From NCBI GenBank assembly GCA_900343135.1, contig OPYK01000001.1:62001-126000 (forward strand): DNA of 64,000 bases, read 5' to 3'. This document shows positions 35,261-37,455 of the stretch, in pieces (within the stretch, counting starts at the first letter, position 1; every line of letters begins with the position of its first letter). Below the pieces are notes generated by a model. The model was not told the DNA's origin. It saw nothing but the letters and a program-made list of their open reading frames with translations, and did not search any database. This DNA is from Atopobium massiliense. GTDB lineage: Bacteria; Actinomycetota; Coriobacteriia; Coriobacteriales; Atopobiaceae. The translations under genes were made by a program, and so were the position numbers.

Positions 35261-35298
35261 ACCTGCAGCACGTCTGAAGCGAGCTGCAGGTGTTTTTT
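35261..35298 (+). terminator. Rho-independent terminator of trpS
   Basis: ACCTGCAGC at 35261-35269 pairs with GCTGCAGGT at 35283-35291, followed by G and six T. It overlaps the last bases of the convergent surface-protein gene by its T tract. Confidence 0.85.
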
Positions 35299-37372
35299 AT
35301 TTTGACGAACGCCGCATACGCAGCGCCGCTACCGTAATGCACGCACCTGCAACACCAAGAAGTGCAAGCACAGCAAACGGCGCTATAAGCATGTCAGACG
35401 TTTGCGGAAGACGGGTAAGCTGTTTATTGTTACGAGGGATTTTCCGCGCGTGAACCGGCACAGCTGGCACCAAAGTAGGCTTGGTGGTGTCGCTTGCAGG
35501 CGAAGCTGGTACGGGTGCTGCGGGTGTGGGCGTGGGTGTGGGTGTCGGTGTTGGTGCATCAGGCACATCCGTGTGCGAGTCATCGGGCTCGTGCGGCGCC
35601 GGTGGATTAGGAACCGGAGGCTTCGGTGCTGGCGGCTTTAGCTTATCTCTATCAATCTCAATAACGTGAAGTGTTGATGGCTCTTTTGTAAGTGTGGTTG
35701 TATCACCCGTTTTCGTTTGCCATGCTATAGTAAACGCAATATCGTCTAGCTTGGGTGCATCCTTCCCTGCTTGCGTTTGGCGAAGCACATACGACCCCGG
35801 TTGCAAGTAAAGCTTGTCTTGCACTTGGTAATAGCCCTCTTGTTGCAGCGACTTCTTTGTTTTCATATCACTTACATCACCATCTAATGTTGGCGCCGTA
35901 TCTTTTGCAAAATCATTACTGAGCGTTATATTTTTCTTTACGAGTACTTCTTTATCGCCCACGCGCTGATACACATCAAAACTCCCGGTGGTAACAGGCA
36001 CAGACTTGCCCGTAGCAGCATCTTTCTTAAACTGATGCACAACAATTTGCGTTGGGATTTTTCTAAATGTGAGGTAATAATATTTTGTGTCAAGTCGCTT
36101 ATATGGCTTTCCGTCTTTCATTTCGTACGCAAACGAAAGATAGTGATTGCCTGGATTCTCTTTTGTATCATTGTTATTTTGAAACGTGCCACCTTTAGGT
36201 TTATCGATGTCGTTGTCCCAATACACATAGCCCGGAATATTGGTAGATGTAAGCTGCTCAAGCGTAGGACGAAAAACACCTGTTGTTCTGCCGTTTTCAG
36301 TTTTTGGTGCGTCGGGGTCGTCCTTAAACGAAAGGATCGAATATTTTACGTCGTTATTTCTATTGCGCATAAAAGACGCAGGTTCAGTTTCCACAGGTTT
36401 GGTAAGATCGCTCAGCCCGTCAATTTTGTGGTTGGGTGCTGCCGATATAACAAAACCCTTGTCTTTGTCTTCTTTTGATAGCAACGGATGTGTATCAGCA
36501 TTACCGCGCTGCTTTAAGGGTGTATCAGCATTAGTTTCTTGTGTTTGTGCGCGATACGCAGCGTCGTCTACAAAGTGAAATAGTGCGCGCACCTTTGGAG
36601 CGGCTTCATAGACAAAGAAATTAAACTCCTCCCCATCCGTGTTAGTTTCATCACCATAATTGGTAAGTACGCGCTCGTTTAACGAACCATCACTACTAAA
36701 TACAATTTTGTAATAGAGATAATGGTCGCGAGATTGCATTTCAATTTTAGTTCGTTTTGTTACATTATTAGCAAGCTGCAAACCATTAAATTCAAAGGAA
36801 TACGGGTGCATAGTGTACACAACTGTTGATTGTGAACCTGCGTATATGCTGCCATCTTTTAGAGTAGTGCCATTTCTTGTTTGATAGCCTTGAGCAAACA
36901 TTGTGTTAGACAGTCCCGTTTTAGAATACTTGTTTACAACAGTATAAATCGCATAGGTACCAGGCTCATCTTTAATAATCTTATTCACTATGCGTACAGG
37001 CTTTTTTGCAGGATCGCTATCGGGCGTAAAGAAATATTTTTGAATGGAACTGTTGTGCTTAAACGCTGCGGTAATTTCTCCATCGCTTATAACAGTTGGA
37101 AACGGATTTTTAACAGCCAAATCTTTAGTGCGTGTGTAGGTGATTACATTGTCATTTTCTGACTTTTGAACTAGATTGTCTGCTGGCTCTTTTTCAAGCA
37201 AAGCATCACCACTTGCTTGAGAAGCGAGTGTTGCAGAACGGGTACTATTCCGAAGGGGGGGGGCAGGTATAAATGATGCTGCAGCTGCATAAGACGGTGC
37301 AAATCCACTTAGTGCACCACAAACAATAGCAGCGGATGCAATGGATCGCCCAAGTGTATGAGAAAAGTGCAT
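35297..37372 (-). CDS. LPXTG-like cell-wall-anchored surface protein
   Basis: The 691-aa protein has an N-terminal signal peptide (hydrophobic 10-32, cleavage likely after the Ala run), a large extracellular region with no family I recognise, a prealbumin/SpaA-like segment near 490-590 (GSFDVYQ ... GSYVLRQTQAG), a Pro-rich wall-spanning linker with a TP repeat (near 616-627), and a C-terminal sorting signal. The signal reads LPQTS at 655-659, then a hydrophobic helix and RMRRSSK, so Ser replaces the usual Gly. A run of nine C in the coding strand at codons 37-40 makes it a phase-variation candidate. The frame is intact as given. It is probably an adhesin or matrix-binding protein. No sortase gene lies in the window. 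Confidence 0.85.
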   Translation of the reverse strand: MHFSHTLGRSIASAAIVCGALSGFAPSYAAAASFIPAPPLRNSTRSATLASQASGDALLEKEPADNLVQKSENDNVITYTRTKDLAVKNPFPTVISDGEITAAFKHNSSIQKYFFTPDSDPAKKPVRIVNKIIKDEPGTYAIYTVVNKYSKTGLSNTMFAQGYQTRNGTTLKDGSIYAGSQSTVVYTMHPYSFEFNGLQLANNVTKRTKIEMQSRDHYLYYKIVFSSDGSLNERVLTNYGDETNTDGEEFNFFVYEAAPKVRALFHFVDDAAYRAQTQETNADTPLKQRGNADTHPLLSKEDKDKGFVISAAPNHKIDGLSDLTKPVETEPASFMRNRNNDVKYSILSFKDDPDAPKTENGRTTGVFRPTLEQLTSTNIPGYVYWDNDIDKPKGGTFQNNNDTKENPGNHYLSFAYEMKDGKPYKRLDTKYYYLTFRKIPTQIVVHQFKKDAATGKSVPVTTGSFDVYQRVGDKEVLVKKNITLSNDFAKDTAPTLDGDVSDMKTKKSLQQEGYYQVQDKLYLQPGSYVLRQTQAGKDAPKLDDIAFTIAWQTKTGDTTTLTKEPSTLHVIEIDRDKLKPPAPKPPVPNPPAPHEPDDSHTDVPDAPTPTPTPTPTPAAPVPASPASDTTKPTLVPAVPVHARKIPRNNKQLTRLPQTSDMLIAPFAVLALLGVAGACITVAALRMRRSSK
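35522..35555. repeat. Hexanucleotide repeat coding for a Thr-Pro linker
   Basis: Units close to GTGGGT or GTGGGC follow each other about five times, coding for alternating Thr and Pro in the wall-spanning linker of the surface protein. Gain or loss of units would change linker length without a frameshift. Confidence 0.7.
37255..37263. repeat. Nine-base homopolymer (G9 / C9) inside the surface-protein gene
   Basis: The tract falls at codons 37-40, just after the signal peptide. Its length of nine keeps the frame open here. A change by one base would stop translation of the surface protein. It is the longest G/C homopolymer noticed in the window. Confidence 0.85.
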
Positions 37373-37455
37373 AAAAACTTCCTTAAGAAATTGCCATAGT
37401 ATAGTTTCTCATGCCATTCTACCCGCAACAAGGCACCTTATGCAAACATATATAC

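Follow-up and report, generated by a model that had tools for sequence, protein, structure and literature searches.

A solitary surface-protein gene with a nine-base C tract

The minus strand of the window, the 64-kb stretch of DNA analysed here, carries at 35297..37372 an ATG-started open reading frame (ORF) for a 691-aa protein that, judging from its architecture and its homologues, is a secreted, cell-wall-anchored surface protein. The gene is solitary, flanked by a trpS-like gene and by a gene for a DcuC-type carrier; no pilin or sortase-like ORF adjoins it, and the locus is not a sortase-dependent pilus cluster of the Bifidobacterium breve type. A ribosome-binding-site-like AAGGAAG (37378..37384, minus strand) lies upstream of the ATG. 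By inspection, the N-terminus resembles a signal peptide (HTLGRSIASAAIVCGALSGFAPSYAAAA), whose region spans approximately residues 1-32 (37277..37372, minus strand), and is followed by a Pro/Thr-rich stalk, an LPQTS sorting-like motif at residues 655-659 (35396..35410, minus strand), which aligns with LPKTG, LPDTGD and LPHTS in the homologues, a hydrophobic stretch and a basic tail, RMRRSSK. The term "LPXTG-like", used in an initial sequence-only reading of this DNA, is therefore a fair description of the protein.

Domain searches are informative mainly at the level of the family. Pfam and NCBIfam give no match to the 691-aa protein; Pfam Gram_pos_anchor matches two of nine homologues and not the window protein, whose motif is LPQTS, and Pfam SpaA is present in three of the nine, with the window protein on its own unmatched. 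A profile built from 8-9 homologous sequences matches PDB chains of FbaB CnaB2 and of pilins (best E 5e-7), placing a SpaA/CnaB-like (prealbumin-fold) domain at approximately residues 437-545 (35738..36064, minus strand). The protein is likely to be a sortase-anchored adhesin or a pilin-like protein, with its architecture being what points to an adhesin role. Single-sequence PDB matches to xylanases were weak (E 0.04-0.4) and judged to be due to chance, and an AlphaFold model computed from four sequences was poor (pLDDT 49).

Four to five residues beyond the signal peptide region, codons 37-40 contain a homopolymeric tract of nine C's on the coding strand (37255..37263, minus strand; the plus strand reads GGGGGGGGG, or G9), just where the sequence-only reading had placed it. 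The tract occupies positions 110-118 of the coding sequence and is read as G-CC CCC CCC C-TT. Among the tract lengths from 7 to 12 that we computed, only 9 and 12 yield the full protein; eight C's leave a 66-aa stub and ten a 42-aa stub, which bears out the earlier claim that slippage by one base would shut the protein off. The next in-frame ATG 3' of the tract is codon 158, and weaker GTG and TTG codons start at codon 58; a product restarted at any of these sites would be without the signal peptide.

The tract is the only homopolymer of at least eight bases in the 64-kb window. G/C runs there number 20,885 at length 1, two at length 6, none at 7 and 8, and one at 9, and A/T runs reach at most 7; a first-order Markov model predicts approximately 0.02 runs of at least nine bases in the window, versus the one present. 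A homopolymer of this length is far above chance expectation, and it is placed where a one-base shift changes the frame.

Twelve G/C tracts at surface-protein genes

The genome to which the window belongs was surveyed as a single assembly of 1,548,103 bases in 16 contigs, 95.5% complete and the sole genome of its genus compared; its tracts were found by pattern searches and by reading the stretches around them (the window and L009-L016). Word counts over both strands gave 40 occurrences of C7, 26 of C8 and 13 of C9, and exact G/C run lengths were 7 in one case, 8 in one, 9 in eleven and 10 in one, so that 12 runs of at least nine bases are present versus 0.53 expected under a first-order Markov model fitted to the window. 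Since the classes of 7 and 8 are nearly empty and that of 9 holds eleven runs, a random distribution would not have a tail of this shape.

Each of the 12 tracts is located either within the 5' part of a gene for a secreted or surface protein or a short way upstream of one, and all of these proteins have by inspection a signal-peptide-like N-terminus; the products include proteins with a C69 peptidase and DUF5648, GA, aRib, FIVAR and LRR_5/DUF5648 proteins, and LPKTG proteins. Six tracts, including that of the window gene, lie inside ORFs between codons 6 and 111, all in frame, and a one-base shift truncates each of the products. The other five affect a C69 peptidase with DUF5648 (L009, codons 6-9), a GA-module protein (L010, codons 12-15), an 1843-aa aRib/GA/FIVAR protein with the tract in its signal peptide (L014, codons 49-52), a FIVAR protein of at least 1949 aa (L015, codons 108-111) and a DUF5648 protein (L012:7381, codons 53-56). 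The frame is otherwise open at five of the six, the last of these genes having an additional, independent TAA that interrupts it after codon 107.

The remaining six tracts are noncoding. Two sit convincingly in promoter spacers, each within TTGAAA-18-TATACT with 10 of 12 matches (L011, with 0.5% of shuffled sequences equally good, and L013:4692, with 0.2%), and a third plausibly does so (L012:5296, TTGACG-17-TAAGAT, 6% of shuffles equally good). Three lie at most 270 bp upstream of an ATG: that of a 606-aa protein with ALPKTGDS near its end (L013:7695), that of the FIVAR gene just mentioned, which thereby has a second tract 267 bp upstream (L015:5887), and that of a protein of at least 1651 aa (L016, 82 bp upstream). 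Across these three tracts, promoter pairs were absent or no better than in shuffles. Pfam matches within the long L016 protein (BigA_N and others) look like repeat artefacts, as no stretch passes alone.

A C-terminal DUF5648 (PF18885) is common to six of the tract genes (in L009, L011, L012, L013 and L014) and is possibly a shared means of surface attachment without LPXTG. The DUF5648 gene with the premature TAA (L012:5807-7546, minus strand) stands in tandem with a 1635-aa aRib gene; its in-frame stop is unrelated to the tract, and the gene looks like a decayed copy.

Neither MutS (PF01624) nor NucS (PF01939) was detected in this 95.5% complete assembly, and control genomes gave the expected results; the absence could possibly reflect the incompleteness of the assembly instead of true loss.

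Homologues of the window gene in both frame states

Among 140 genomes of the family, searched at a cut-off of 1e-6, the window gene has beyond itself only distant partial matches, with 29-38% identity over the matched part and a best score of 78 bits. Its closest orthologue is found in Coriobacteriales DNF00809 (64% identity), followed by proteins of Gardnerella greenwoodii and Bifidobacteriaceae NR047 (40% identity over approximately 600 residues, up to 313 bits). A tree groups the window gene and its DNF00809 orthologue with the Bifidobacteriaceae proteins and sets other Atopobiaceae apart (100/99, midpoint root), which suggests a transfer of the family between classes.

The tract varies within this family. 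Gardnerella (L018) and NR047 (L019 and L038) have G10 3' of the signal peptide, out of frame; in a second paralogue, Gardnerella again has G10 out of frame (L036), and NR047 has G9 in frame in an 856-aa protein (L039). The Atopobiaceae genome G124, which belongs to another genus, has C10 at codons 6-9, out of frame (L021), and in four further, distant homologues (L022-L025) the tract is absent. Tract length and frame state thus differ among related alleles, as seen here between homologues, and a single protein family displays tracts of either base, in three different places and in both ON and OFF states. Because base and position differ from one homologue to the next, tracts arise repeatedly, and the differences between G9 and G10 are most simply explained by slipped-strand mispairing during replication. 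The DNF00809 orthologue (L017) has no tract but an unrelated linker at the corresponding place. The sequence-only reading had taken non-homopolymeric sequence in close relatives to speak against a switch, and such sequence is found in one relative, this orthologue; it looks like tract turnover, because other homologues carry tracts elsewhere. In Gardnerella greenwoodii, homologues of the window gene and of a 587-aa gene from the same genome as the window lie side by side (L018:1717-6875), and both carry G10 out of frame.

DNF00809 has approximately ten tract places of its own (L026-L034), and where both partners of a homologue pair bear tracts, base or place often differs between them. Pairing each gene of our genome with its homologue, the 642-aa gene with G10 in its promoter corresponds to a DNF00809 gene with G10 upstream (L032; 87%), the 1949-aa gene with G9 both upstream and in the ORF to one with C10 upstream (L027; 79%), the 1843-aa gene with G9 in the signal peptide to one with G12 upstream (L029; 40%) and the 1651-aa gene with G9 upstream to one with C9 upstream (L034; 42%), and the 587-aa gene with G9 in its promoter is matched in Gardnerella by a gene with G10 in the ORF, out of frame (L018:2005; 48%). 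Promoter pairs across the DNF00809 tracts at L027, L029, L032 and L033 were absent or no better than in shuffles. The association of DNF00809 tracts with surface proteins is strong but incomplete, with two lying by genes of other kinds. One of them, C10 at L033:4048-4057, is approximately 54 bp before an ORF whose sequence looks L-lactate dehydrogenase-like, an unusual target for a switch; the other, C9 at L026:3599-3607, lies in frame within a 281-aa ORF whose product has no Pfam match but to the eye is similar to DNA adenine methyltransferases of phages. Short stretches from other Atopobiaceae genomes hold several more G tracts beside signal-peptide-like ORFs; many of these genomes are G+C-rich, and some of the runs may be due to chance.

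A candidate contingency locus, currently ON

Very probably, C9 acts as a simple-sequence contingency locus, subject to phase variation by slipped-strand mispairing and currently in the ON state. We posit that mispairing during replication adds or removes one base within the nine C's. With nine, as in this assembly, the reading frame continues beyond the tract, and the adhesin-like protein would be exported and anchored; with eight or ten, translation would stop shortly past the signal peptide and leave only a stub, the OFF state, until a second slip brings the frame back. In the genome as a whole, approximately 12 G/C tracts would switch surface proteins independently and randomly, through frameshifts in some cases and through altered promoter spacing in at least two. 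The sequence-only reading of the tract as a phase-variable switch finds support in the 12-tract set and in homologues captured in both frame states, and the testable features of the tract support placing it among the homopolymeric contingency loci; switching itself, its rate and reversibility and its benefit, be it immune escape or bet-hedging in adhesion, are what we infer.

Could the tract be a chance run or an assembly error that has no function? Sequencing of homopolymers is error-prone, and a single run of nine in 1.5 Mb would be unremarkable, but this genome has 12 runs, all at surface genes, with homologues arranged alike in independent assemblies, and a one-base error would break a frame that is in fact open; we give this explanation hardly any credence. 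The same holds for a slippery site at which RNA polymerase or the ribosome would turn a single DNA length into a constant mixture of frames. Long homopolymers can make both machines slip, but C9 is already in frame, so that slippage could only cost product, similar tracts occupy untranscribed promoter spacers, and similar G tracts in B. breve have been shown to slip at replication (PMC9187656).

A more serious contender, albeit an unlikely one, is a tract that is mutable but slow, drifting on an evolutionary scale and disabling the gene in certain lineages rather than switching often and reversibly within a population. The clade-wise variation of tract lengths in Propionibacterium acnes (PMC4746626) and the lack of a tract in the closest orthologue, that of DNF00809, favor slow drift; against it stand the sharp genome-wide peak at nine, the confinement of tracts to the 5' ends and promoters of surface genes, the frames still open at five of six ORF tracts, the failure to find MutS and NucS, and variation at the level of colonies in Gardnerella (PMC11287997). 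Taken against these alternatives, a reversible switch remains our preferred reading.

Relation to known systems and implications

Switches of this kind are well known in mucosal bacteria: Neisseria, Campylobacter and Helicobacter have poly-G/C tracts in the 5' coding regions and the -35/-10 spacers of many surface genes. The present case differs in that the proteins are Gram-positive surface proteins and in that MutS and NucS were undetected in the genome. The mechanism is already known from Gardnerella and B. breve. In Gardnerella, genes with Rib, GA, FIVAR and LPXTG features bear G/C tracts of at least eight bases, either inside the gene or upstream of it (mSphere 2024, PMC11287997), and after one re-streak the 9-base tract of a GA-module gene was read as 10 in 1/10 and 2/9 colonies (PMC11287997). 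The likeness extends to the window protein family itself, which has tracts there; these are, however, runs of G on the coding strand approximately 55-95 codons into the gene, whereas the window gene has C at codons 37-40, and Gardnerella belongs to the class Actinomycetes and the window species to Coriobacteriia. In B. breve UCC2003, replication slippage in G tracts joins or splits an ORF and thereby switches sortase pili (Sci Rep 2022, PMC9187656). There, as predicted for the window gene, the homopolymer separates the signal peptide from the rest of a sortase-anchored protein with a pilin-like domain, but the B. breve gene is the first of a pilus operon that has a sortase of its own, and the window gene is alone. 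Cutibacterium (Propionibacterium) acnes is, like the window species, an actinobacterium with mostly G/C tracts, which are intergenic or affect the frame (Sci Rep 2016, PMC4746626); its tract lengths follow clades, and the authors read this as slow accumulation, not active switching (PMC4746626).

In the literature searched, switching by homopolymer tracts is apparently unreported in Coriobacteriia. If our reading is correct, this Atopobiaceae species has approximately a dozen independent, random switches of surface proteins, and a clonal population would be a mosaic of surface types, which would bear on strain typing, on biofilm and on escape from immunity. With tracts recurring in shared protein families of two classes, comparison would offer a direct test of how phase variation evolves. 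More tentatively, and with the odds somewhat against it, phase variability could be a conserved trait of a shared set of adhesins whose families have been exchanged between Coriobacteriia and Bifidobacteriaceae, the tract being made anew in each lineage with a different base or at a different site (in the ORF, the signal peptide or the promoter). A biased mode of tract formation, in which the G run ends up followed by T, may help this along.

Bases flanking the tracts

Read on the G strand, long G tracts are followed by T in 46 of 64 cases (the window, L009-L016, L026-L034 and L040-L079), including 10 of 12 tracts in the genome of the window, eight of nine in DNF00809 and eight of nine in genome G018; after runs of three to four G's, T follows in 16-38% in most of the same genomes. 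The base preceding the G tracts of DNF00809 and of the window's own genome is mostly C, and the sequence is often GC-G9-T.
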